A model generated the notes under the pieces. That model saw nothing but the letters and a program-made list of their open reading frames with translations, was not told the origin of the DNA and searched no databases. Below are positions 3,038-64,000 of a stretch of 64,000 nucleotides of DNA, piece by piece; positions within the stretch are counted from its first letter, which is position 1, and each line of letters begins with the position of its first letter. Origin of the DNA: Chaetoderma sp. LZ-2023a (Eukaryota > Mollusca > Caudofoveata > Chaetodermatida > Chaetodermatidae). The stretch is from positions 89,222,381-89,286,380 of the forward strand of contig CM067369.1 of NCBI GenBank assembly GCA_034401795.1, read 5' to 3'. The translations under genes and the position numbers were made by a program.

Positions 3038-4438
3038 TCAGGTACGATCCTCCACAACCTTCTTGGCTTTCTTCGCCGGAGGCGGCTGAGAAAAGCCAGA
3101 TGAAGCAGAAGCAGCACCAGGCTTAGCTTTCGCCTTGCCTTTATGCTTCTTCTGCTTCTTAGAAGGTTGCATGGTCAGCGGCTTTGCTACAGCCCGTAGT
3201 GCGTGCGCTTGACGCACCAGCTCTAGCTGTAGGTTCACCGCCAAACGATTCTGCACAATGCTAGCCATGTCTTCTAAGATGGCCCACGCCTGGCCACCGA
3301 AGATGCTAGGGCCTGTCAGGGGCATCCCAAGAAGACGCTCCCTGACGGCTGTAGCTGGACGCATATGGTCAAGAACCATCTGCCTCCTAGACCTTGTAGC
3401 ATGCGCCTGCACCCTTGCCAATGCGTCCATAGACAGCACCAGGCCGTCATTGACGCATGAAAGTGCCACAGGTGGCACAGGGTGGCCTTCCCCCGCTTCA
3501 GCCCACACCGACTGAAGAAGGCGATAAGAGTGGTTGACAGCACTCATAGCTGCCCTCACACCCTCACCACAAAGGGACAGGACTTCATCGTGGTGTCCCT
3601 GGGATTTGTCCACCAGTGCCGGGGCGGGGCCACCCACTCCAGCACTCTGGACACCCAGAACCCATCGGTCATCCTCGGTGACCGACGGTACAACACCATA
3701 CCTGTCGTATTCCCCCCGTGGAATACGACACCTCGCCCGCACCTCCCTGGAGGCCGCAGGAAGCTGGCCCTTGGTCATGAATTGCTTGCTATAAATAGCC
3801 TCCAGCAACTCAATAAACCGTGGATCCAGTCCAATGGACTGGATCTGGGCTGCGGGCAAGATCCCCGTCCTGATCGATGCCACCGATGGATGGGGCGCAT
3901 CCTCCTCGGCCGTGGTCGAAACCACAGACGGGTCTACCCTGGCTAGCCAAGCCAGAGCCTCAGACCAGTCCGTCTCCGAGGAGGACACACCCGTGAACAC
4001 GTCACCCGTTGACATGCTCACGGACCTGCCAGCAACGGCCTCCCAGCTAGGAGCCGTCGCTGACACGCCAGGAACTCCGGTACCATACGGTTCCGCCGCC
4101 ACCCCATGGGACACACCAGTCCATGGAGTAGGCCAGCACGGAAAACCGTGTGGACCCGTAGCAGTCACGGAACCGTGGCCAAACACGGGCGCCAACGGCA
4201 CCCCATGTCTGACCGCCAGATCAGGCGAGATAGGTGAGTACCAAGCCTGGCCCGGCACACCCGTCACCGTGTCGGTTGGCGGCAAACCAACCATCACAGG
4301 ATCGGTGCCTGGTACCAGATTGGCCTCAACCACGGGCGGAGCCGCTGCCCTGGCTTGTGCCAAGCCAGACAGATGGAGGGTGGTTCCGTCCAGGACGGAA
4401 TCGACCTCCATATTCTCCACCCGCGGCATCACAGCCAC
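3038..4438 (-). CDS. DIRS-like gag-like ORF, main part
   Basis: A 466-codon minus-strand frame lies directly upstream of the RT. The N-terminal half is rich in Pro, Gly, Val and Thr without clear domains. The centre has an acidic, helix-prone segment, and the C-terminus ends in a lysine-rich tail (KKQKKHKGKAKAK, then PPPAKKAKK). Position and composition fit the structural (gag-like) protein of a DIRS-type element, which packages RNA through basic residues. No zinc knuckle is visible. The first codons overlap the end of the next upstream frame (4429-4920) by a few bases, and the two together look like one protein split by a frameshift. The gag identification rests mainly on position. Confidence 0.6.
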   Translation of the reverse strand: MAVMPRVENMEVDSVLDGTTLHLSGLAQARAAAPPVVEANLVPGTDPVMVGLPPTDTVTGVPGQAWYSPISPDLAVRHGVPLAPVFGHGSVTATGPHGFPCWPTPWTGVSHGVAAEPYGTGVPGVSATAPSWEAVAGRSVSMSTGDVFTGVSSSETDWSEALAWLARVDPSVVSTTAEEDAPHPSVASIRTGILPAAQIQSIGLDPRFIELLEAIYSKQFMTKGQLPAASREVRARCRIPRGEYDRYGVVPSVTEDDRWVLGVQSAGVGGPAPALVDKSQGHHDEVLSLCGEGVRAAMSAVNHSYRLLQSVWAEAGEGHPVPPVALSCVNDGLVLSMDALARVQAHATRSRRQMVLDHMRPATAVRERLLGMPLTGPSIFGGQAWAILEDMASIVQNRLAVNLQLELVRQAHALRAVAKPLTMQPSKKQKKHKGKAKAKPGAASASSGFSQPPPAKKAKKVVEDRT

Positions 4439-19396: not shown

Positions 19397-20418
19397 TGAC
19401 AAAAAACCCACTCTAAACCCATTCAATTTAATCCTATCCCAATTTAACCATGCTGACACCAGAAATGATCCCAATATATCTGCACCAACCTGTGAATACA
19501 TCCTCCCAAAAACATTCAATGATAACCTACTAGGAAACAAAGAACACATGGCCTTCTCACTTCTATTTATCAACATGCAATCTCTCATGGGGAACATCGA
19601 CAAGTTACACCATTTCCTAGATATGAGTGCACATGAATTTGGAATTATTGGAATTACAGAGACATTTATACATGTATGCAAATTCACCTACTAACCGTAT
19701 CAATATAAAGAACTACACATTTGTTGAAAAGCACAAAACCATGGGCAGGGGAGGTGGTGTAGGCATGTATGTTAAAGAAAATGTCCAATTCATTGAGCGA
19801 GATGACCTTTCTAATATTGAAGAACATATTCAAACAATGTTTATCGAAATTCAAACACCGAAAGGAAAAAACAAAATTGTAGGTACAATTTATAAATCAC
19901 CTAAAGGCGATAAGGAACGTCTTATTGAACTATTAGGAAAAACTTTGGCAACTATTCAAAAGGAAAACAAAACTGTCTACCTCATGGGTGGCTACAATAT
20001 TGACCTGATGAGACAAACTTGCTTTCATCCACAACACTTTATAAACTTACTAAATGCTCATTCATTCTACCCAACCATTACAAAACCGACTAGAATAGGT
20101 GATGTTTCGGCCACAATTATTGATAATATATTCAGCAATAACATTAACTTCAGTAATAAATCGGAGGTAGGAATTCTCGTTACTGACACATCAGACCACC
20201 TACCAATTTTTCTTCTCGAAAGACAGCTGACCTGCACAAAGCCATTCAAATATGAAAAAATTAAATGCAGAGAAATAAATCAGGTCAATATTGAACAATT
20301 TAAAAAACACATGTCTGAGGTGGATTGGCATGAGTCACAGACATACGGTGCTGCGAAAATGCCTACACCAAGTTCCACGAAATTTGCACGCACATCTTCG
20401 AAAACAGCTTTCCCATGA
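19395..20418 (+). pseudogene. LINE ORF2 endonuclease domain (broken)
   Basis: The first part (19395 to about 19690) contains LLFINMQSLMGNIDKL and GIIGITETFIH, the Asn and Glu blocks of an APE-type endonuclease. After a frameshift near 19680 the frame continues with GRGGGVGMYVKENV, GTIYKSPKGD, YLMGGYNIDLM, IIDNIFSN and TSDHLPIF. The block that is normally GDFN reads GGYN, so a catalytic aspartate is replaced by glycine and the nuclease would be inactive. The frame ends at 20418, just as the linker to the RT begins in a third frame. Its role would have been to nick target DNA for primed reverse transcription. Confidence 0.8.
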
Positions 20419-22399
20419 AAGAAAAGAAGAAATTTAAACACAACCCGACTAAACCATGGATAACAACTGGACTGATAGCTGCCTGTCATAAAAAAAATAA
20501 ACTTTATTTGAAGTTTATCAAATGTCTAACAAAGCATACTGAACAGAAATTCAAGAAATACAGAAACAAGTTGGACCAAGTAATCAAAACAGCAAAAAAA
20601 ACTTACTACCATAACAAATTTGAACTATGCAAGAATGACATAAATGAAACATGGAAAATAATTAAATCACTTTTGAATAAAAATAACCGCAAAGCACAAC
20701 AAACACAATTTCTTTATAATAACAAGATAATAACTGATGATCTAGAAATTGCAACAAGATTCAATGACTATTTTGCTAATATAGGTCCAACACTTTCAGA
20801 TAAAATCAAATCAACATCCTCTAATAAATATAGTGATTATCTCACTGGCGACTATCAATCCTCTTTTTTTGCTAACCCGGTCACAAATGAAGAAATTTTT
20901 AGCATTCTTAACAAACTAAACCCTGCAAAAATTGCTGGCTTGGATGGTTTCAAGTGGAGTATTTTCAAACACTGAACGCTAGCGCTACTAATACCCCTTA
21001 ACCACATCTGTAACTTATCTTTCACTCAAGGCATATTTCCATCAAAATTAGAAGCAGCACAAGTAACACCTATATGCAAAGCAAAGGATTCATCTAACCT
21101 CACAAACTATAGACCTGTCTCAATACTTCCATTTTTCTCCAAATTAATGGAACGACTTGCGTACAATCGGCTTATCAGCTACTTAGATAAAAAGTCAATC
21201 CTCTATACATCACAATACGGATTCCGTGAAAAACATTCAACAATGCTAGCACTAATTAAAATGACAGAAAAAATAATGGACTCAATTGAAAAGAAAAAAG
21301 CACATAATAAGCATTTTTTTACCTTTCAGAAGCTTTCGACACTATCAATCATAAAATCCTACTAGAAAAACTTGCCTATTACGGAATCCGAGGAAGTGCA
21401 CTCATCTGGTTTGAAAGCTATCTAAGTGACAGAGTGCAATGTGTGCAATTCAATGCAACTTGCTCTGAAAATAGGAGACTAACTTGCGGTGTCCCTCAGG
21501 GGTCCATCCTTGGCCCTCTGCTGTTCCTCTTGTACATGAACGATCTGCCTAACATACGCACACATATGTCATTAATACTATTTGCTGATGACACCAATGC
21601 CTTTTGCTCTGACGAAGACATAGCTACATTATATAAAAACGTAAATAAGGAAATGGAAGAAATTACTAACTGGTTTTCACTAAATATATTATCACTAAAT
21701 GTGGATAAAACAAATTATATGTTATTTTCAAAATCTAGAGAATTAATAAATAAAGAGGTTCCAAAATTGTATATTAGCAATAAGGAAATTTAAGAGGCCC
21801 CTTATGCAAAGTTCCTAGCAGTATATTTAGATAAAAACTTGACCTGGGCCAAACAAATCGAAATAGTTACTGCAAAAGTAGCAAGAGGAGTAGGTGTGAT
21901 CCAAAGACTAAAACCATATATGGCACAGGCCACGGTTAAAACACTGTACAGCACCTTGATCCTCCCGCACCTCACTTACTGCAATGCTGTTTGGACTAAC
22001 ACCTACAAAAACAGAATATCCAAAATTCCAAGTCTCCACAAAAGAGCATCAAACTATTTTCTACGCCAGCAAAGGGCCAAAACATGTTCAATGCAGAAAA
22101 GTTACTTAAGCTCACCGGCATAGGAAAATCTCAAAATGCTAACTATTGTCAAAGACTTCCACCATGACACTTTACCCAAATCAATAGCCCCCCCTTCTTT
22201 TTAAACAAAATTAACATCCATCAACATACCACTAGAAGCAGACATAAACTACATGAGCAATACACACAGACAGACATAGGAAAACACCGAATATCATTTG
22301 CAGCCACTAAACTATGGAACAACACAAAACAGGAAACACGTGAGAAAATTCTATCAACAAAATTGTGCAAGAAAACAATAAAAAAACTACTTGATTAAC
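20415..22399 (+). pseudogene. LINE ORF2 reverse transcriptase and C-terminal region (broken)
   Basis: In order: linker (20415-20975, KPWITTGLIAACHKKNKLYL), the first RT block ending AGLDGFKWSIFKH, NYRPVSILPFFSKLMERL (21105-21165), QYGFREKHSTMLAL, the AFDTINHKILL region (21330-21365, other frame), CGVPQGSILGPLLFLLYMND, the catalytic ILFADDTNAF box, LNVDKTNYMLFS, the post-RT segment ILPHLTYCNAVWTNTY and finally ISFAATKLWNNTKQ ending at a TAA at 22398. At least five frame changes or stops (20975, about 21000-21100, 21365, 21793, 22123) break it. The catalytic Asp-Asp remains. The layout suggests a CR1/L2-like clade. Confidence 0.85.
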
Positions 22400-42849: not shown

Positions 42850-42950
42850 GCCGATTACACATGGCTTCTCCCCGGTGACCAACCGAACCAGGACTGCCCT
42901 CGCAGGATATACCCGTCCGTCAAGAATTATGACCCGAGACGGTGGCGGCG

Positions 42951-44525
42951 ATGCAAGCCATGGGATCTGCCATGGCCGACACGATCGTCGATAGCAGCAA
43001 CCGGAGGGAAACAGAGCGGGTCTACCGCCAAGAGATCCGAGAAACAATACAAAGAATCCAGCCATGCGATGGGTTAATACCCGAACAAGTGCGAACGTTT
43101 CTGGATGAAACCAGTCGGGCATGGGTAGCCAACGAGGGTAGACTAGGTGGGGTACCCGCCTATATAATAACACGGGCTGCCCGAGGACAGTTAGCGCGAG
43201 CCATAGATGGCTACTTGGTAGGCAAGGTCAGAGAGGATGTGACCTTTCAGGCCCTAAGAGACTATATAACCCTCAACTTTATTTCAGCCAATGAAGACGA
43301 AAGGGTTAAGTATGATTTGGACGGGGTCCGCCAGCGGCGAAGCGAAACAATCATTACCTTCAACCGGAGGTACCGCGAGCTGGCGAGACGAGCCTACCCT
43401 GTAGAGAACGACGATAATCGCAGGACTGTCATGGGCATATACTTGAAGGCCCTGAATGACCAAGGACTAAGCCGAAGGATAGTGAGAAAGAAGGCAGCTA
43501 CCCTAAACCGAGCGATCGAAATTGCAGAGGAAGAAGAGGTCTGCAATGACCTGTTGAAAGCGATGAAGATAGGTGGACGGCAAGAGGAGAACATGGAGAT
43601 TGATGCGTTAGAACCGGAAGAAGAAAAGGGGATTTGGCAGGTGGTAAACGTGTTGAAGAAACAGATGGCACAACAAAGTCGTATGATCGAAAAATTATGC
43701 GGCATCATAGGCGAGTTAAAAGAGGAAGCCAAAGTGCCGCGACAATCGGCAACACGAAAAATGCCATCAGCCAGAAACGCGAAACAACAAAAAGGACAGC
43801 GTCCTCCCGTCAAATGCTTCAAATGCGATAAAACCGGACACATGGCCCGGGACTGCCAAGTTAACGCCAGAAGTTCAGAACCACGACGTAGTGGGAAACG
43901 AGACGTAACATGTTTTAATTGTGGGCGAATCGGCCACTACAAGAGTGACTGCCTGCAGCCCCTACAGCCTCCTCAGGGGAGAACTCGGGTGCAAACTATG
44001 CCACGACCACAACCCCGAGGACAGAAACCACCGATGACATGTTTCAACTGTGGTAAGGAGGGGCATGTTGCCCAGGACTGTTACACGTTTGCCAAACGGA
44101 AAGGCAACCCTAATACCGTAACGTGTTTCGGATGTGGGAGGAACGGACATTATATCCGTGATTGTCCCACCACTGGTCCCCGGCAGACGTCCCGTTCAAG
44201 CCCGAATCATCAACGCGCGACCAAGCGTCCCCGGACCGAGGATGTAGCCATGGACATGGACATGGACATCGACGAATTAGGCAGTCAGCAAGCCACCACG
44301 CCCCGTTCATGTTCCCGAAACGTACGAAGAGACATTGCCAATGGGATGCGAAATCGGGACGAGTACGAGGACCCGGAAGGATTCGTCTTAATGGGCGAAG
44401 GGACAGATGCCTACGGCCGGTATTCATATGGCATGGACAGTGCATCTGGCCAGCGGAGTTCCTACGCGGAAGTAGTTAGCGGACGAAGGAGTCCGGTAAA
44501 TGGCGACGGAGGAAACCGTTGGTGA
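42951..44525 (+). CDS. gag: gag polyprotein with four CCHC zinc knuckles
   Basis: The open frame starts shortly after a TGA at 42930; the first ATG is 42951. The N-terminal half is a helical capsid-like region (VREDVTFQALRDYITLNF, FNRRYRELARRAYPV). The C-terminal half carries four perfect CX2CX4HX4C knuckles: CFKCDKTGHMARDC, CFNCGRIGHYKSDC, CFNCGKEGHVAQDC and CFGCGRNGHYIRDC (about 43815-44170), separated by Arg/Pro/Gln-rich linkers. Gypsy gags usually have one to three knuckles (family knowledge), so four is unusual. Knuckles bind genomic RNA during packaging. The frame ends at 44525, overlapping pol, which is in the -1 frame. Confidence 0.9.
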   Translation: MQAMGSAMADTIVDSSNRRETERVYRQEIRETIQRIQPCDGLIPEQVRTFLDETSRAWVANEGRLGGVPAYIITRAARGQLARAIDGYLVGKVREDVTFQALRDYITLNFISANEDERVKYDLDGVRQRRSETIITFNRRYRELARRAYPVENDDNRRTVMGIYLKALNDQGLSRRIVRKKAATLNRAIEIAEEEEVCNDLLKAMKIGGRQEENMEIDALEPEEEKGIWQVVNVLKKQMAQQSRMIEKLCGIIGELKEEAKVPRQSATRKMPSARNAKQQKGQRPPVKCFKCDKTGHMARDCQVNARSSEPRRSGKRDVTCFNCGRIGHYKSDCLQPLQPPQGRTRVQTMPRPQPRGQKPPMTCFNCGKEGHVAQDCYTFAKRKGNPNTVTCFGCGRNGHYIRDCPTTGPRQTSRSSPNHQRATKRPRTEDVAMDMDMDIDELGSQQATTPRSCSRNVRRDIANGMRNRDEYEDPEGFVLMGEGTDAYGRYSYGMDSASGQRSSYAEVVSGRRSPVNGDGGNRW

Positions 44526-47500
44526 GGCCACCGACCGAGCGGTTTCTGATCCGTCTGAGATTAGAAAGAAACGGTCTTGTGAAGAAGGGTGAGTACCTGC
44601 ATGCGTTGATAGATACAGGTGCTAGCACATCCTTAATTCGAAAGGATATTTGGCGTAGCATGTTAGATGCTAGGCCATTAAAAAGAGCAAGAACGCTCTT
44701 AGCTGTAAATGGTGCCCCAATAGAACTTTTGGGAGAAACGCAAGTAAAATTTGAAAATGCCCGGCCTATTCCAAGTACGGTAGTGGCGAGTATGAGGCAT
44801 GAGTGTTTGATTGGAGCGGATGCTTTGCACTTGGGAAATGCAAAGATTGACTATCGGACCAAAGAAGTAGTATGGTTTGGTCAGGTATATCCCTTTAGGT
44901 ATCCCTATAGGGAACAAGCGAAATATGTATATGCTAGTTGTAAGGAAACGACCGGATATAAAGATATCGACAAAGTGGTAGATGACTTTGCGGATATCTT
45001 TGATACGGCTCGTCCAAACACTTTAGGATTGGTCCCCAAAGTGAAATGTATGGTACCGACAGGAGATGCTTATCCTATAAGGCAGAAGGCCTACCGTCTA
45101 CCGCTAACCAAGCAATATGTGGTCAAGAACCAAGTAAAAGAAATGCTTGATGCGGGCGTCATAAGACCATCGTCATCCCCATGGGCGTCGCCCATTACTT
45201 TAGTTCCTAAGAAGGACGGTGACACACGGTTTTGTATTGACTATAGGAAATTGAATTCGGTATGCCGTAAGGACAGTTACCCGCTACCGAATATCTCTGA
45301 TATTTTTGATTCGATGCGGGGCGCAACGATATTTTCTACTATGGACTTGAAGTCTGGATATTGGCAGATACCGATGGCCAGCCAAGACATAGAGTAGACG
45401 GCGTTCGTCTGCAGCGAAGGTTTGTACGAATGGATTCGTATGCCGTTCAGTTTTTGCAACTCAGGTGCCGTATTTCAAAGGGCGATGAATGACATTTTCC
45501 GGGAATTTGTAGGAAAATATGTGCATGTTTTTGTCGACGATATAGTCGTATATTCACGAAATACGACAGAACATGCACATCATTTGCGTAATGTCATGCG
45601 CAAGATTAGAGAGTATAACTTACAAGTGAAGAAAAAGAAGTGTGATTTCGCCAGTAAGTCTGTGGACTTGTTAGGATATCGCATTTCTGCACAATGAGTA
45701 GCTCCTCAGGCTCAGAAGGTCAAGGTCATTAGGGAAATGTCACCACCACGTGATGTGGGTGAAGTAAGGAGTTTCCTTGGAGCTACCGGATATTACAGAT
45801 TCTGTGTGCAAGGCTATGCCAAAATTGCCAAGCCTTTAATAGAGTTAACAAAGAAATATAAGCTTTTGAGTGGGGTAAGGATGAACAGCAAGCGTTCAAG
45901 AAATTACAGAACTTGTTGTGTAGTGAGACGGTTCTCACATATCCGAATTTAAACGCCCCTTATAAGTTATACACCGACGCGTCTAGTTATGCTATTGGTG
46001 CTATACTGGTACAAGACGATGGTAAGGGTATAGAGCGAGTGATTCAATATGTAAGCTCTACTCTTAAAGATAGTCAGCTTAATTGGCCCGTAATAGAGAA
46101 GGAGGCTTACGCTGTGATCTATGCGTTGAAGAAGCTCCGCCCATATCTATTTGGCGCGCAGTTTACCGTGTACACTGACCACAAACCCCTAAAGAGTTTG
46201 TTCGTGGGTGAAGTGAAAAACACGAAGGTGCAGCGCTGGGCAGTGCTGATTGCTGAGTACGGATGCAAGATTGAATACATCCAGGGCTTGAAGAATATTC
46301 GAGCGGACATGTTGTCCAGGTTACGTCGTCCGGTGGAAGTCGCCACGTTAGACACAGGCGATTATGTCATACCTGAGGTAGACGAAGGTGTGTTACCGCA
46401 TGTCCCTCTAGAGGTTTATGACATACCCTACGACGAATTGCGTACCGAGCAGACCAAGGAATACCCGGAGTTGTTCAAGAACACACCGGAGGAGTATATG
46501 GTCAAAAACGGTATTGTGTATTCCCTGGTGACACCTTCAGCATTGGACGCTGAGTACCCCAGAATCGTATTACCTACCCTGTTCCGTGAGAAAGTGCTCC
46601 GGAAGGCTCATGAGAGAGCCGGTCACCAAGGTCTGAGAAAGACCATCGGTATGGTAAGGGATTCTTTTGTGTGGACGTCTTTAAGGAAAGATGTGGTTCG
46701 TATGCTTGAAACGTGTACAACGTGCCAGGTCAACCGACCCGTCACTACACGACCTCAATACAGTGAGATGCCCATGGCTAATTATCCGAGTCAGATAATT
46801 GGTATGGATTTGATCGGTCCACTGTTAGAGTCAAGCAGAGGTAATGTGTATATCATGACGATAATCGATCACTGTTCTGCATGGGCAGAAGCATACCCAA
46901 TTGCTGCCAAGACATCTCAGAATGTGGAAGACAAGTTCTTTAATGAGTATGTAGCTCGTCATGGTGTCCCTGAAATCTTAATAACAGATCAGGGTAAAGA
47001 ATTTTGTTCAAATAGTCTGGAGGAACGATTTAAGGAACACGGTATAGATCATAGACGATCAAGTACATACCATCCGCAGACGAATGGACGTACCGAGAGG
47101 TTCAATCGTACGCTCAAGGAGCTGATCCAGAAAGGTGTTAATAATGAATCTTGTGCATGGGAGGACGAATTGGGTGCGGCTTTAACAGCATACCGCAGCT
47201 CTCGTCACTCCACGACTGGATATACGCCATTTTATCTGACGTATGGGCGTCGGGCAAGACTTCCGTTAACCATCCCACTGGATGCTACGCAGGATCTGGG
47301 CGAAAGACTTACATGTCTTAATAATGCCTTGCTGCGCGCTCGTGGAGAAAGAGCTAAGTCTCGAGAAATTCACCGAGAACAAATTAACAAGCGTGCAAAC
47401 GCTGGTGAATTCAAGGTGGGCGATTCAGTGGTCGTAAAAGCTGAGGAGAGGATGAAATTGACCTCTCGCAGTGACCCTGAGTACGAGATCCTTAAGATCA

Positions 47501-48081
47501 ATGGTCCTGTAGCTCATGTCCGACATCAGAGATCTGGGAAAGTGCGCGTACTTAATATATCCAAGATACGTGTAGTGGATTCAGAAATGTGTTGGGACAG
47601 GGTCCGACCACGCCCTATTCGTAACCCTGCTAAGGGTACGAAAGCTAGCCATCACCCTCGAGTGATAGTACCCGAGTCCAAACCTTGGCCGGTAAACGAC
47701 TCCGATGCGACATCAAGTAAGCGAGCTCGTAGGAAGCGACCAGCTTCTGATGAAGAGCCAAGGGTGCGCAAGGGTGGTAAGGGGGTTGATATAGATATAG
47801 ATCAACCTCGTACGAGTCAGATTCGAAACCATGAGTCACCAATGGAAACCCAAGTGACTCCTCGTACTGTAATGATGGACACCTCGGAGGAGGTACCCGA
47901 GCCTGCCAATGAGCCAATGGAAACGCTTCCATCTCATCCCTACTTTTTGCGCAAGCGCAGTCTCGCTCATGATGTCTATTCAGACCCTAAGAGACTCAGG
48001 ATTGGCGCGTTTGGCCGCGCTCAATATGATGATTTCATCGGTCGTATCGAAGCGGTTATAAGCCGACGCAGCAAGAGGTAA
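44480..48081 (+). pseudogene. pol: pol polyprotein (protease, RT, RNase H, integrase), broken
   Basis: The pol frame is open from 44480, overlapping the end of gag in the -1 frame, so gag-pol would be made by -1 frameshifting; I see no classical slippery heptamer. Domains in order: protease with LIDTGAST (about 44606), RT (RFCIDYRKLN, FSTMDLKSGYWQIPM, FVDDIVVYS), RNase H (LYTDASSYAIGAIL, TDHKPLKSL), integrase with HHCC finger (HERAGHQGL...CTTC), catalytic GMDLIGP, LITDQGKEF and NGRTERFNRT, and a C-terminal region including FKVGDSVVVKAEERM. Breaks: TAG at 45395, TGA at 45695 and a frameshift near 45866. From 45913 to 48081 it is open for over 700 codons. The C-terminus is Pro/Arg/Glu-rich. Confidence 0.92.
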
Positions 48082-48133
48082 AATGACTCTCTGACTTATC
48101 ACGGTACTAGTAACATAGCCTAAATCTAGCATC

Positions 48134-50017
48134 ATGTATACATTACAGTTATGTATGATAGTGATAGTAGCAGGTATAGTACATAGTGTCTGCCGAAAGT
48201 CTAGTATTCATAGATTACCAAATGGTGTTATGATAACCGATCACCAGGAAATATCCTTAATACGCGCGGAATGGACGGTGGTAGTATCCATAGACCATCC
48301 GTATTTACCTGCTGAGTTTCTTAACCAGATGTTAAAGATTCATGTGCTCGTTGCGGATATCAGTCAAAAGACTTCATTAAGCAGCAACAACATTCTAGGA
48401 CTCCAACGTCGGATTGACGGCATCAGGAAGATTGCCATAGGTACACAACAAACCATGCAGAAACGTAATATTCGGAGAAGGAAGCGGGGACTCTTTAATT
48501 TTGTGGGTGACATAGTGTCATCTTTATTCGGGACTGCTACATCCGGCGACATAGAAGCGATCCGGGATGTGGTGAAGGAAGCGATGAGGAATGTAAACAG
48601 ATTGGTCCATTTCTCTAACAAATTAGCGTCACACGTGAAACTTGCTTTTAAGGCAATAGACACCAATGTGGATAGAATTAACGGTGTGGCAGATAGTTTG
48701 GTAGAATTAACCGGAAATGTTAGCCGACTTTTCAAAGTACAGGCAACGCGTCAAGCAGAACTGTATGCATTAGTACGTCTCGGGCACCTTGTCGATGCAG
48801 CCGAGGATGTGGTAACTAGTTACCAGAAAGCTGCTGCTCAGTTCCATAGGCAAACGGCTTCACTCGAGCTGGGTAGATTGACAGAGGAATTATTTAGCCC
48901 TATGGACCTGGCCACTGTGGCTAAGCAGGTCAGCGTAGGCAACCGGTTAATCCGTCCCTACCAATGGTACTACCGGAACGTGGTAGTATATCCCCTGTGG
49001 AGGGACGACGAAAGACTGCATTATGTAGCTACCTTACCCTTAATCGACGGAGGACAGTACATAGAATATGGGTTGCATTCATGGCCCGAACCATTGGTCA
49101 CGAGGGGTTACTATATGCAGGTATTGGTAGCTAGAACTAGTATTGGACTTGACACTAAGACGGGTTGGTATTTTACACCATCTGAGTGCCAAGGGAATAA
49201 GCCTCGAGTATGTCACGGGCAATTAAGGGTCGATAAGACCCACGTGCCATGTATAGTTAGTCTGCTAACGAATACCACGGATAGTACCTGTAATATTAGA
49301 CTGACTGAGTCCAACGAAACGTCTAGTAAAGTATTTGCCAATAAGAAAATAGGCGTAGTTTTGCAAACGTTCGGAGAAACGGTTGAAGTACACTGCGGCG
49401 GACGACTGACGGACCGGTGTGTAGTGAAGAATGGTGTGTTTGCTTTAATGTCTGAAGAATGTGATTATAGTGGAAAGGGTTGGCGATTTGAGCCGGTACA
49501 GTCTTATAGTAGGACTTACACTCGAATCAGTCTGGCCATTGATATGCCACGGTTGGATGTGGCCGGGGTACTAAACCAATCAATGATAATTAATCAGTTA
49601 AGTATGCAAAAGTGGGACCATTTGCATAGGTCTAAGTACGTGCCGCTAGCACCTTTATCTGCGGTCGACCCAGCGATGGTCGATGGCATGGGGGTGCGGT
49701 CGTTTGTGTCATATTCTACCGGCTCCTTTGTTGTAGTGCTCGTCATTGTGGCAATTATGTGGAAGTGCGGTATATTTGCACGCATGTGGTTATGGATTAA
49801 ATGCAAGCCACATGCGGCCCAGAGAAGTGCGCCACGGACTATTCACCCTCTAAGGCCCCGGAGACCTGCAGCCCTACCGGAGCCGCTGAGGATGTCGGCC
49901 GGGTCGTCGCCTAACGCTGTTGCCAGGACCGTGATCGACCCGATGGCTGACGACTGGATGGACGTGGTGATTGACGATCCTAACATTCATATATCATACG
50001 AGGATTTATCTTTGTAG
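48134..50017 (+). CDS. env: Env-like fusion glycoprotein (baculovirus F / errantivirus type)
   Basis: A 627-codon open frame starts 52 bp after pol. Visible: a hydrophobic N-terminus (about residues 5-19, signal peptide), a basic cleavage site RRRKR at 114-118 followed directly by GLFNFVGDIVSSLFG, which looks like the furin site and fusion peptide of baculovirus F-type envelope proteins, a helical ectodomain (ELTGNVSRLFK...), possible N-glycosylation sites (NVS, NTT, NET, NQS), a transmembrane segment around 529-551 (SFVVVLVIVAIMW) and an 80-residue cytoplasmic tail. Length fits this class (about 500-700 residues). It would be a type I membrane fusion protein, probably made from a spliced mRNA. 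Unlike pol, it has no break. Confidence 0.85.
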   Translation: MYTLQLCMIVIVAGIVHSVCRKSSIHRLPNGVMITDHQEISLIRAEWTVVVSIDHPYLPAEFLNQMLKIHVLVADISQKTSLSSNNILGLQRRIDGIRKIAIGTQQTMQKRNIRRRKRGLFNFVGDIVSSLFGTATSGDIEAIRDVVKEAMRNVNRLVHFSNKLASHVKLAFKAIDTNVDRINGVADSLVELTGNVSRLFKVQATRQAELYALVRLGHLVDAAEDVVTSYQKAAAQFHRQTASLELGRLTEELFSPMDLATVAKQVSVGNRLIRPYQWYYRNVVVYPLWRDDERLHYVATLPLIDGGQYIEYGLHSWPEPLVTRGYYMQVLVARTSIGLDTKTGWYFTPSECQGNKPRVCHGQLRVDKTHVPCIVSLLTNTTDSTCNIRLTESNETSSKVFANKKIGVVLQTFGETVEVHCGGRLTDRCVVKNGVFALMSEECDYSGKGWRFEPVQSYSRTYTRISLAIDMPRLDVAGVLNQSMIINQLSMQKWDHLHRSKYVPLAPLSAVDPAMVDGMGVRSFVSYSTGSFVVVLVIVAIMWKCGIFARMWLWIKCKPHAAQRSAPRTIHPLRPRRPAALPEPLRMSAGSSPNAVARTVIDPMADDWMDVVIDDPNIHISYEDLSL

Positions 50018-59194: not shown

Positions 59195-59281
59195 CTGTTG
59201 AATATTTTGAAATTAATTTGACTGGGGGCTGCCATAGGCCGCAACAGCGCCCAGTCAAATTAGTTACAAAATATTCAACAG
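59195..59281. repeat. Palindromic repeat family P, best copy
   Basis: 87 bp: left arm CTGTTGAATATTTTGAAATT then AATTTGACTGGG, centre GGCTGCCATAGGCCGCAACA, right arm CCCAGTCAAATTAG then TTACAAAATATTCAACAG. The arms pair over about 30 bp with few mismatches, so the whole unit folds into one hairpin. No coding capacity. Confidence 0.9.
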
Positions 59282-59751: not shown

Positions 59752-60276
59752 ATGGCGGAATCAGAAATTTTGTGTTTGTCACTAGTGAATTCGAATTTAG
59801 ATTTGTCAGGTAATAACACTACTATAGATTTTCAAACTGCTAAATATGATGAAGATGACATTTGCACTATTAAATACAACACTTTCTCAATAACCTTGCA
59901 ATTGAAAAACCGCGATAGCATTTCAAAATTGGTCACAAAATGCGAGGAATGTTATGGCGTTGGTATGAAAAAGGGTGCCAACGGAACAATATTTCGTGTA
60001 AATCGACACATACGCGATGACGAGTCTTGTATAGCAACGGTCACGCTCTATAAGACCACGGGAGTAATACATGTTCAGGGTAAAGACTCTCATGACTGGA
60101 TTATTAGAGACTTCCGACTTCTAACAAGCACCATTAGTGATGACGCTTGTAGTGAAAGTGACAAGAAAATCACCGATAGTGATAGGAACCCGTCGGCTTT
60201 AAATACAACACACGGACTACCGACATTGCGTCTTCCAGTATGGAAGATGATCTACGTTCTGAAGACGTACCGGTGA
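59752..60276 (+). CDS. LINE ORF1, N-terminal segment
   Basis: Starts at ATG 59752 in a strong context (AAAATGG). Reads MAESEILCLSLVNSNLDLSG, SITLQLKNRD, TVTLYKTTGVIHVQGKDSHD, WIIRDFRLL. The I.LY.TTG.I.VQG....W...F pattern is one I associate with ORF1 N-terminal domains of some LINEs (nucleic-acid binding). The frame ends at a TGA at 60274. A following open frame (60240-60530, minus one frame) continues the protein, so a shift lies in 60185-60240. Confidence 0.6.
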   Translation: MAESEILCLSLVNSNLDLSGNNTTIDFQTAKYDEDDICTIKYNTFSITLQLKNRDSISKLVTKCEECYGVGMKKGANGTIFRVNRHIRDDESCIATVTLYKTTGVIHVQGKDSHDWIIRDFRLLTSTISDDACSESDKKITDSDRNPSALNTTHGLPTLRLPVWKMIYVLKTYR

Positions 60277-60530
60277 CTACAAATGAACAACGCTACTCGT
60301 TTGGTAGCGAGTTGAACCTATCGCTATCGTCGCCTATACAAACACAAATGACGACAACGGATGGTGAATTGAACCTTCATCCATCATCACCTATCCAAAC
60401 CCAAACGTCGCCGAAGGAACTATTCACGCCAGAAGTAATGAGCACACCTTTGTACCAGAGTTATCACACTACGCCCCCCTCCATTAACCGAAGTAATAGA
60501 ACATGTGATTGTGTTAAGAAATCTGCTTAA
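60240..60530 (+). CDS. LINE ORF1, middle segment (frameshifted)
   Basis: MEDDLRSEDVPVTTNEQ, then two copies of a repeat ending ELNLSLSSPIQTQ and ELNLHPSSPIQTQ, and ...YHTTPP. It is Ser/Pro/Thr-rich, a linker. At the run of six C at about 60474-60479 the frame that continues into the coiled coil and hydrolase is offset by one base, so either an extra C or a slip occurs here. Confidence 0.5.
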   Translation: MEDDLRSEDVPVTTNEQRYSFGSELNLSLSSPIQTQMTTTDGELNLHPSSPIQTQTSPKELFTPEVMSTPLYQSYHTTPPSINRSNRTCDCVKKSA

Positions 60531-61641
60531 TGAGAAAGAGTCCAGAATTGACACACTCGTTGCTGAAAACAGAGCTTTAAGAGATCAGTTGTGCGTTAAG
60601 ATACAAACTACTGTAAACAAATCCGTGAACACAACCGACCATTCTATGGCTCAGTGTAGCCCATTAAGTGAACAATCAGCCCAGCCTCAACAAGTACCAG
60701 ACCAATGTAGTTCAGTAGGTACAAACATAATTAACACGGAGACGCTTTGTAAAACAGTATCTAAAGACACGGAGGGATCAGGCAATGTCGAGACCCGATC
60801 TAGTCAATTATGTACGAATCCACCCGAAGAAGTGAAAGAGACAGATAATAATAATTGTAGCCACCTACATCTAGAGCACACGAGCATTAAGACTGAAACA
60901 CCAGAACCTGACCATAAGACCACTTCTCAGAAACAGATAGAAGTTGTAACAGATGTAAAACCACCCATACACCAACGCTATGATTATGTTTCCAATCCTA
61001 CAAAGCAGACATTAATCATAGGGTCGTCAATACTCAAAGGAATAAGTGAGAGCGGCCTGGATCAATCAGTACAGGTAATGTGTTGTAAAGGTGCGAAAAT
61101 TATTGACATTCGGGAACTATTATATTCATTAGATTTGCAACATTTCAAGAACATTATCGTAATGGCCGGTACCAATAACTCGAACGGTCCTGTTGGCGAC
61201 GCGCTATATGACATTGAGAGACTAGTGCGTGATGTCCATAGTTTGGCACCACAATGTCAACTTTATATATGCGAACTATGCCCGCGTGGTGATGAACCAA
61301 AACGACAACAGTTCATTACCAAATCTAATCGCTATTTGGAAGTTATGGAACATTTCCTGGATTTCACAGTCATTGAATCGTCAAAGTTATTCTCTTCAAG
61401 AAATCGTCCAGGTGTCATAAACAATTCATTATTCTATGCGGACAAATATCACATAAACAATGCTGGATCTACAATTCTTGTACGCCGTATAAACGAATAT
61501 GTGACAATTATCCGTAATTCCGCGTGTAATTTCTGCGGAGAACCTAATCATAAATCTTCGTTATGCCGTCACGGTCGACCGGTCTTGTGTTACTCGTGTA
61601 ATTATTATGGTCACAAATCAAATCGGTGTCCCGGACAATAA
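60442..61641 (+). CDS. LINE ORF1, coiled coil, SGNH hydrolase and CCHC knuckles
   Basis: The frame is open from 60442. A short leucine-zipper-like coiled coil (VLRNLLNEKESRIDTLVAEN) is followed by a polar linker, then the SGNH hydrolase: LIIGSSILKGI (catalytic Ser block), KGAKIIDIREL, NIIVMAGTNNS (Asn block) and ADKYHINNAG (Asp/His block), all in place. The C-terminus has the Cys/His pattern CNFCGEPNHKSSLC and a second knuckle CYSCNYYGHKSNRC, ending at the TAA at 61639. SGNH domains occur in ORF1 of CR1-like LINEs; the added CCHC knuckles resemble gag and would bind the element's RNA. The complete catalytic set suggests a working enzyme. Confidence 0.75.
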   Translation, partial: AHLCTRVITLRPPPLTEVIEHVIVLRNLLNEKESRIDTLVAENRALRDQLCVKIQTTVNKSVNTTDHSMAQCSPLSEQSAQPQQVPDQCSSVGTNIINTETLCKTVSKDTEGSGNVETRSSQLCTNPPEEVKETDNNNCSHLHLEHTSIKTETPEPDHKTTSQKQIEVVTDVKPPIHQRYDYVSNPTKQTLIIGSSILKGISESGLDQSVQVMCCKGAKIIDIRELLYSLDLQHFKNIIVMAGTNNSNGPVGDALYDIERLVRDVHSLAPQCQLYICELCPRGDEPKRQQFITKSNRYLEVMEHFLDFTVIESSKLFSSRNRPGVINNSLFYADKYHINNAGSTILVRRINEYVTIIRNSACNFCGEPNHKSSLCRHGRPVLCYSCNYYGHKSNRCPGQ

Positions 61642-61882
61642 TGGCCCGGCGAGGAAGGACAGCCTACTAAAATCTTGAAATCTAAAAACATCTTGAGTAA
61701 AATAAACAGTCCTGACGGTTCATTAAATAATTCCAATACCCCATATAAGAGTTCATTAATGCGGACTTCTAATATATTGAGTGTCCAAACATTGTCCCAG
61801 AATAATGATATATCATGCCATGGTCTTCTAAATAATAATAATGATAATAATAATAATGATAATAATAATAATGATAATAATG

Positions 61883-61921
<39 letters not shown>

Positions 61922-62293
61922 GCAGCAGCAGTAGCAGCTTTATCACTGAATCTTTTTATAATATCGCTACTAGTAATAGATTTGAATTTTTAAGCGATAA
62001 TTGTTACGAAATGCACAGCGATATCGCATCCCGCTGTGACAAAGAAGTGGGAGATTCAGAATTAGGCCTATGTCCTGTTTTCATGCCACAAACTACGCTC
62101 ATTCCTGCTGTAACTTGTACTGAAATTCGTACCAACACATATGATAATGACACTACTACTGTCATTGATAATGATTGCGTTGTAATTGCTGGAAATGGTC
62201 TTAGCTTTCACGTTGACAATCTAGCGCAAAGTAACATTGTCGGCATGAAAGATAACACTGATTCCTGCAAGTATAATAATAATGATAATAATG

Positions 62294-62329
<36 letters not shown>

Positions 62330-62350
62330 GTAAAAATAATAATAATAATC

Positions 62351-62393
<43 letters not shown>

Positions 62394-62413
62394 TGATGAA
62401 AATGATAATAATG

Positions 62414-62460
<47 letters not shown>

Positions 62461-64000
62461 TTCATTAACGACCTAAATATTATATCATATTGTCATACAA
62501 AAAAGGCATCCAATCTAAGCACGCCTATAGCTGCTACTAATCCGCTTGACCAATGGATATGTCCCCCTGATTTTATCAGATTAACTGTGCGACACGACCT
62601 TAAAACATTTAGCATAAATACAAAAGGCATACGTATAGGTCATTTAAATGTGCAACAACTACTACCTAAGATAAACCAATTAAAAATAATTATGGAAAAA
62701 AGTGTGAAAGAGCTTGAAATTTTCGGTACTACTGAGACTGCCCTAAGTAGCATCACCACAAATAATTTAATCGACATTAGTGGTTATAATATTGAGCGGA
62801 AAGATAGGGTAAATCGTAATGGAGGCGGCATCATAATGTACATCGAAGAGAATCAATCGTATTGTAGGAGAACTGAGTTAGAATCTATGTCATTGGAGGC
62901 ACTTTGGATCGAAATAACGCCGTATAAAATGAAATCATTTTTACTTGCCTGTGTATATAGACCTCCGGACTCCCCGACTAGCTGGACAGACGAATTTGAA
63001 TCTTTACTGGAGGCGGCATATTTACATAACCCAGACATTATTCTGATAGGCGATTTCAATATAGATTTCCATTTACCCATAACCGGAAAATGGCAAACCT
63101 TGATGAATACTTTTCACCGTGAACAATTAATTGATAAATCAACCCAAATCACAGAGACGACATCTACTTTAATAGATCATATATACTGTACGGATAAAAC
63201 CAAAATTACGTCTGCGAGTGTAGGTGATTTGGCGCTAAGTGACCACCACCCCGTCTTTGTTATTCGCCACTGTTCCATACATAGAACAAATACCCACCAT
63301 TCTATAAAATATAGATGTAAAAAGAAGTTTGATAATAGTAAATTCATTCAAAATTTATCGGAATACAAATGGGAGATAATTAATTTAATTAGCGATCCAA
63401 ATGAAGCGTTAAAATTATGGCATGAAACATTTCTTAGTATTCTAAACAAACACGCCCCTATTATTGAACGAAGAATAAAAACATATCACCAACCAGGCTG
63501 GCTAAACGAAGAAATATTACAAACAATCAGAGATCGAGATTATTGCCATAAAATCAAGGATATGGTCAAATATAAACAACTGAAAAATAAAGTAATGTCT
63601 CTCATAGAAAATTCAAAACGGCAACATTTTGGCGTACAATTAGTTCAAAATAAAAATAACCCGGCAAACATATGGAAAATAATGAAAAGTATAAATCCGC
63701 AAACTAACAAAATCCCATTAACATTAATCAATAAGGACGGAAATCAGATTAGAAATACTGTGCAACATTGTGAAATGTTCAATGAATATTTTTCTACAGT
63801 TGCTTCCGATCTGGCAAATAGCATAAATAATCAAGCGTATGCCATATCTGAGAAACTTAAAACCCATATCAAAGTTAGAGTGCCCAAAGAAATCGAATTT
63901 ACAATACCCCCGATAACACTGGATTACGTTTACGAGGAAATCAAGCATCTAAAAACAAATAAGTCAGCGGGATATGATGATCTAAACGCCCATTTTCTAA
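61642..64000 (+). CDS. LINE ORF2, endonuclease and start of RT, with poly-Asn extension (runs off window)
   Basis: The same frame as ORF1 continues without any stop from the codon after the ORF1 TAA to base 64000 (over 780 codons); the first ATG is 61759. About 330 codons precede the endonuclease. They include in-frame AAT tracts at 61831-61920 and 62272-62460 coding mostly Asn with Asp, Ser, His and Lys interruptions. The endonuclease has RIGHLNVQQLLPKI, EIFGTTETAL, RNGGGIIMYIEE, ACVYRPPD, ILIGDFNIDFH, LIDHIYC and LSDHHPVF: all catalytic blocks are intact. RT starts near 63900 (LKTNKSAGYDDLNAHFL). The layout suggests CR1/L2/Daphne-like; the clade is uncertain. Confidence 0.85.
61831..61920 (+). 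repeat. AAT microsatellite coding for poly-Asn, first
   Basis: Thirty codons, 26 of them AAT with four in-register GAT codons, followed by AGC/AGT serine codons. The repeat keeps the ORF2 frame throughout. Confidence 0.9.
62272..62460 (+). repeat. AAT microsatellite coding for poly-Asn, second
   Basis: About 63 codons, mostly AAT, with GAT, CAT, AGT, AAA and GAA interruptions, all single-base substitutions that preserve the frame. Confidence 0.9.

Follow-up and report, generated by a model that had tools for sequence, protein, structure and literature searches.

The window, namely the whole stretch of 64,000 nucleotides that was analysed, carries on its plus strand the 5′ part of a LINE that continues past the window end. 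On its domain matches, the element is assigned to the APE-type LINEs with an esterase-like ORF1, the esterase match being weak. Its parts within the window are the following:

59752..61641, plus strand: ORF1 (ATG at 59752, TAA at 61639-61641), with an intact counterpart in copy L010 (L010:566-2542)
about 61078-61467, plus strand: putative SGNH/GDSL esterase-like region of ORF1, a weak match
C-terminal in ORF1, plus strand: putative CCHC knuckle, a weak match
61639..61641, plus strand: TAA between ORF1 and ORF2, which share one frame (codon reading; TAA in 47 of 49 junctions)
61642..61830, plus strand: leader segment S0 (WPGEEGQPT...), with the first in-frame ATG at 61759
61831..61920, plus strand: AAT tract T1, 30 codons (leader codons 64-93), Asn with Asp interruptions
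61921-61938, plus strand: six Ser codons directly after T1
61939..62274, plus strand: leader segment S1, with the motif YNIATSNRFEFL, similar to motifs of families B, C and D
62275..62460, plus strand: AAT tract T2, 62 codons (leader codons 212-273)
62461..62625, plus strand: leader segment S2 (FINDLNIISYC...PLDQW...KG), reaching the endonuclease
62626..64000, plus strand: APE-type endonuclease and start of the reverse transcriptase, cut by the window end (Pfam on L010)

The complete organization of the element is provided by L010, an unmasked copy elsewhere in the genome, with an ORF1 of 658 codons, one TAA and an ORF2 of 1278 codons (stop to stop) containing both AAT tracts. Pfam places RVT_1 in this copy at E 4.8e-31 and, upstream of it, Exo_endo_phos at 1.7e-7, both above the curated cut-off. 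Lipase_GDSL_2 in ORF1 (1.8e-5; 25.8 bits) falls below its cut-off of 32.9 and the CCHC match is also weak, while a phmmer search of ORF1 against the PDB matches a PAF acetylhydrolase at 7.4e-4. The PDB returned no match to the endonuclease/reverse transcriptase piece of the window. Copies of the window's own family, here called A, end in AATAAAGAATG followed by ATT repeats, with differing flanks (16 of 20 copies, those in which the 3′ anchor was found). An imperfect inverted repeat (TTGAATATTTTGAAATTAATTTGACTGGG...) lies upstream of ORF1 in this family (window 59195-59281) and resembles by eye one in the 3′ UTR of family B (L038:3199-3307); it is perhaps a captured small element.

A sequence-only reading of this locus had proposed that the frame following the ORF1 stop is open to the window end, and this is the case, with 786 codons from 61642 and no stop. 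The same reading counted AAT tracts of about 30 and 63 codons; the first figure is exact, the second is 62. Also correct is that the interruptions of the tracts are substitutions, as both the codon reading and TRF (0% indels in both arrays) indicate. The proposed extension of 330 codons is sound as the distance from stop to endonuclease, whose motif GIRIGHLN begins at leader codon 329 (62626), but not as the distance from start to endonuclease, since the first in-frame ATG (61759) is codon 40. The suggestion that the copy is very young, on the other hand, is weak: ORF1 of the window copy is out of frame at 60277-60441, where its L010 counterpart reads through.

The element is not alone in the genome. 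A search with the 1002 bases originally noted gives at least 43 matches including the window (40 of 204 candidates scored), that is, at least 42 further ones, at least 21 of them over 650 bases. A protein search with the endonuclease and reverse transcriptase (EN-RT) adds families B and C (46 of 70,663 candidates scored), and further searches add D, E and F, the six families A-F being sorted by eye. Family B has at least 32 matches at 72% protein identity, 31 of them without a stop; seven pieces were read, and its copies show 93-100% DNA identity (40 of 145 candidates scored). Common to A-F are an ORF1 end of the YGHKSNRCPGH type, the TAA, a same-frame leader whose start resembles WFGQEEVPT, and the poly-Asn tract T1. 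T2 is present in A to E, the F pieces ending before its position. In addition, several families carry in-frame tandem repeats of their own in the leader: a 12-residue minisatellite in B (CAPDSACIPASP), a 42-residue module in D (...SNAVIEDGHTVTDSSSNPIVLVTATANFSDA..., four times between the Asn tracts in copy L043) and a 14-residue repeat in F (ATDVTTSNPTADYV). For S1 of a single C leader, a search of public proteins gave 413 candidates, none of them at E 0.001. The leader is thus real, common to related families and part of the element: the intact ORF2 of L010 has both tracts, the sister families have the same layout, and the open frame begins upstream of the endonuclease in all five families examined to that domain. 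In this respect the initial observation of an Asn-rich extension kept open is confirmed, and is wider than first noted.

The open frame of the leader extends well beyond its repeats. In representatives of A, B, C, D and E, picked for an open frame, one per family, the non-tract leader contains no in-frame stop over 239, 363, 250, 247 and 160 codons, respectively; base shuffling predicts 16.1, 19.9, 15.7, 15.1 and 10.5 stops, and the other two frames give 8-45. The internal repeats of B and D make their leader codons partly non-independent. Across copies, the frame stays open for at least 200 codons after the junction in 16/16 A, 6/6 B, 3/5 C, 9/16 D, 1/2 E and 2/4 F. Older copies are often broken. 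Frame-breaking deletions are found in the non-tract leader of three A copies (L016, L020 and L023), and two stops in T1 of one C copy (L039).

An open frame is accompanied by a relaxed amino-acid sequence. The leaders of C and E align over 138 codons with no internal gap and 43% of residues alike. Between C, D and E, S1 has a dN/dS of 0.65-0.76 (0.68 for C-E), the bootstrap intervals of pN/pS all include 1 (C-E 0.77, 0.59-1.01), and third positions are without excess in C-E (55, 44, 46; p=0.49), so that protein-level constraint in this segment is not shown. Values of 0.28-0.46 are obtained for S2, adjoining the endonuclease, and of 0.21 and 0.42 for the motif after T1 (the two unsaturated pairs). 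Within the non-repeat extension, for which a dN/dS estimate had been suggested, S2 is firmer than S1. For EN-RT itself the ratio is 0.07 and 0.09, the A-C pair being saturated. In other words, the leader evolves near-neutrally while EN-RT is strongly constrained, a pattern to be expected of a disordered linker whose frame is kept.

How ribosomes might reach such a leader is a matter of the junction, which was located in 49 of the 57 pieces examined; one spurious match (L027) was dropped and 7 pieces had none. The junction codon is TAA in 47 of the 49 and CAA in the other two, both of family D, with the same frame on both sides. The CAA copies are L044 and L056, and in L044 ORF1 runs directly into the leader frame. 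The supply of in-frame AUG codons differs among families. The first Met is at codon 40 in A (16/16), at codons 50-57 in B (6/6) and at codon 14 in the E copy L047. In C it comes at codons 232-245, with none before 232 (4/4 copies in frame there), and in the D copy L043 at codon 375. In the remaining eight D copies whose frame is open over at least 200 codons, no Met precedes codon 194 except in L051 (codon 81), and no in-frame Met occurs within the 244 and 250 codons read of F copies L057 and L062. In C, D and F, then, the frame mostly stays open without AUG over about 190-374 codons. Shuffling expects 2.5-3.9 Met in these stretches, with P(0) of 0.017-0.075 per copy (eight copies, those of the same family not being independent); thus, the lack of AUG is mildly unusual and not compelling. 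Downstream of T2, C and D do carry an AUG. The interval from T2 to the endonuclease is free of Met in 9 of the 11 A copies that are readable, so that an ORF2 started at an AUG would have to contain T2 in this family.

A single mechanism, readthrough of the UAA, would account for the families and is our best guess. UAA is usually the tightest stop codon, which counts against it. Moreover, the surroundings of the stop offer little by way of a signal. A 6-bp stem can be drawn around it, with pairing in 92% of cells, but shuffling does as well in 187 of 500 cases and covariation lends no support; a hairpin that would stimulate readthrough is not supported. The codons after the stop have a pooled pN/pS of 0.70 (bootstrap 0.44-1.14), with no clear constraint. 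The first nine of them have a pS of 0.29 versus 0.61 at the ORF1 end, which may reflect an RNA signal or small numbers.

A different possibility, to which we give a lesser though appreciable weight, is that translation of ORF2 begins at an AUG of its own, through reinitiation or internal entry. That AUG would be codon 40 in A, lie at codons 50-57 in B and follow T2 in families C and D, and in the latter two the region upstream of T2 would be an untranslated spacer. The positions of the in-frame Met in A, B and E and after T2 in C and D agree with this, as do the weak amino-acid constraint on S1 and an AUG lack that is just mildly unusual by shuffling. Four of the families, A, D, E and F, also have a UAAUG overlap at their junction, and UAAUG coupling has been described for SART1 (PMC5972666). 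The overlapping AUG lies in the -1 frame, however, out of frame with ORF2, and is absent in B and C, and a spacer should not remain stop-free over 250 (C) and 247 (D) non-tract codons. Non-AUG initiation or reinitiation may also provide an alternative route to the leader.

The AAT tracts themselves were followed in a family A sample of 20 fetched copies, the window's included, with T1 and T2 each measurable in 19. T1 is in frame in 19/19 copies and T2 in 18/19, the frame being broken inside T2 in copy L021. The expectation that tract lengths stay in multiples of three across copies consequently stands for T1 and, with this one exception, for T2. The frame-breaking tracts that would have spoken otherwise are few, and outside family A a frame change inside a tract occurs in one of six B copies (L036) and in the D copy L048. 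Over the same family, T1 measures 14-42 triplets (19 copies) and T2 36-77 (20 copies, with anchors different from those of the frame count).

From this regularity it had been argued that the copy is young or its repeats selected, an argument that turns out to be wrong. A third AAT tract, non-coding, is located in the 3′ UTR of the same A copies. It spans 46 to 202 bases between fixed anchors and is the same modulo 3 in all 16 copies with both anchors (the anchors are missing in 4 of 20, three of those having masked stretches). Whole-triplet indels against others, as aligned to L010, number 18:0 in T1, 21:1 in T2 and 14:0 in the UTR tract, or 39 against 1 for the two coding tracts pooled. As a tract without a frame keeps its length class too, slippage alone preserves the frame, and frame preservation is ruled out as evidence of selection.

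The interruptions lead in the same direction. In A copies T1 has 70, of which 66 are GAT and none AAC; T2 has 182, of which 105 are GAT and 7 AAC; the UTR tract has 53, with GAT the commonest (24) and a single AAC. The rarity of the synonymous AAC speaks against selection for Asn, as does the prevalence of GAT, which also prevails where the repeat is non-coding. Read in its other two phases, AAT would give stops or poly-Ile. The AAC counts thus lend no support to selection for Asn, but one difference points the other way. Triplets that read as Ile in that phase (ATT and ATC) account for 24 of the 53 UTR interruptions, whereas T1 has 0 among its 70 and T2 has 3 among its 182. This deficit may come from a hydrophilic constraint disfavouring Ile, or from inherited positions in the UTR tract. 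In two D copies (L068 and L044) an in-frame run of Tyr codons replaces part of an AAT tract, as if the repeat had been flipped in orientation; that of L068 sits inside T1 and the frame is still open.

A further possibility is that the AAT repeats have a role at the level of DNA or RNA, for example in pairing with the (ATT)n end or as a template prone to slippage, their coding being incidental. AAT tracts are indeed present in the 3′ UTR of 16 A copies and in that of the single copies of B and C in which this part was read, and A and C have an (ATT)n tail. In the C copy L037 the UTR tract (3353-3426) and the tail (3548-3597) form a long inverted repeat, of which A has both parts. The tail of the B copy consists of TTATC repeats instead, nothing points to pairing in the RNA, and the open non-tract leader would be left unexplained, so that we consider such a role unlikely. 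Selection of the poly-Asn runs themselves, for example as a prion-like domain gathering the retrotransposition particle, appears quite improbable. In its favour, poly-Asn occurs in each of the six families, with two or more tracts where the pieces reach T2 (five families), and Ile triplets are depleted in the coding tracts. Against it, AAC is rare, GAT is the commonest interruption with or without a coding frame, tract lengths range over 14-42 and 36-77 triplets, the 3′ UTR has AAT tracts too, and the open D copy L068 has a Tyr run inside T1.

With moderate confidence, then, we favour a translated, repeat-rich leader that serves as a permissive linker and is most likely reached by UAA readthrough. 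According to this model, the about 300-400 codons between the ORF1 stop and the endonuclease would be translated into a probably disordered linker, in which AAT tracts would be made and resized by whole-triplet slippage, the Asn runs being a tolerated by-product, and in which minisatellites and modules would expand in the same place. Selection would keep the frame open and hold a few short motifs, not Asn itself. Ribosomes that pass the ORF1 UAA would stay in frame and yield an ORF1-ORF2 fusion as a minor product, like that of readthrough gag-pol. The layout shared by the families, the open frame, the slippage control and the rate difference are observed facts, whereas disorder, the linker role and stop readthrough are inferred. 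A bolder proposal, offered tentatively, is that this LINE lineage makes its reverse transcriptase as an ORF1-ORF2 fusion via the conserved UAA, and that the disordered leader joining the two halves is a nursery in which in-frame repeats turn over fast (poly-Asn, the minisatellites of 12 and 14 residues and the 42-residue module). The bulk or stickiness of these repeats might tune particle assembly.

Known elements share aspects of this organization. An esterase-type ORF1 is described for ZfL2-1 and other CR1/L2 LINEs (PMC3905857, PMC4120745), and the esterase ORF1s in the set of PMC4120745 come from vertebrate groups only. The element resembles them in APE endonuclease, reverse transcriptase and an esterase-like ORF1 (here a weak match), a likeness of domain content, and differs in its CCHC-like ORF1 end, its repeat-rich ORF2 leader of 300-400 codons and its in-frame TAA junction. 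Non-LTR elements with 2A StopGo sequences (PMC5972666) likewise have a leader upstream of the endonuclease; unlike them, the leaders described here are without NPGP. This 2A-like motif occurs in 15 of the 120 EN-RT homologues listed (139 passed), and in none of the leaders of 60 pieces scanned; its two matches, both in L040, are on the opposite strand and, about 455 codons ahead of the end of ORF1, in the frame of that gene. SART1 (PMC5972666) shares the UAAUG junction with A, D, E and F, although the AUG here does not read in the ORF2 frame and B and C lack it. Gammaretroviral gag-pol readthrough (PMC5009743) likewise involves two genes in one frame and a single stop between them, and the second gene of C, D and F is likewise without a nearby in-frame AUG. 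The present junction differs in that the stop is UAA and not UAG, that the element is a LINE and not a retrovirus, known here from sequence alone, and that no stimulatory structure is supported.

Long leaders are found in relatives as well. The homologue P0006, 37% identical in EN-RT and 1655 aa long, has a low-complexity leader of 712 residues before the endonuclease; it differs in starting with Met and in a longest Asn run of 3 within the leader. Over the 108 homologues with an endonuclease start placed (of 120 listed; 139 passed), the leader has a median of 49.5 residues, a maximum of 712 and a longest Asn run of 3. Leaders are thus common, long ones rare and poly-Asn ones not seen among the matches listed. 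Dictyostelium is a host known for polyasparagine runs. Its TERT carries polyasparagine (PMC6592521). A literature search, with most subscription papers outside it, found no precedent in LINEs for a poly-Asn leader of ORF2, nor for a junction at which an in-frame UAA is read through.

For most LINE clades, to our knowledge, the way in which the second gene is translated is still unsettled. The families described here differ in AUG supply and share one in-frame UAA junction, and for this reason readthrough, reinitiation and AUG use predict different outcomes, separable with one set of reporters. The interest would be higher if UAA readthrough were true. The leader is, in addition, a natural experiment on how much low-complexity protein a reverse transcriptase tolerates.

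Other mobile sequences lie in the same window. Positions 42933-50017 (plus strand) hold an LTR-type retroelement, called from its genes, namely a CCHC gag, RNase H, integrase and a Baculo_F-like envelope gene. A reverse transcriptase fragment, DIRS-like by eye, occupies 1-1277 on the minus strand (RVT_1, 2.9e-20), and a second LINE-like stretch is found in pieces at 19627-21793 (plus strand), with a weak Exo_endo_phos match below the cut-off (0.00023) and an ORF that by eye is reverse transcriptase-like. Finally, one contig of the assembly (G000:C18; 4,762,156 bases) is bacterial, with cytochrome oxidase genes and 36-38% G+C in the piece read, and perhaps derives from a symbiont; the 17 other numbered contigs (C1-C17) measure 73-278 Mb.
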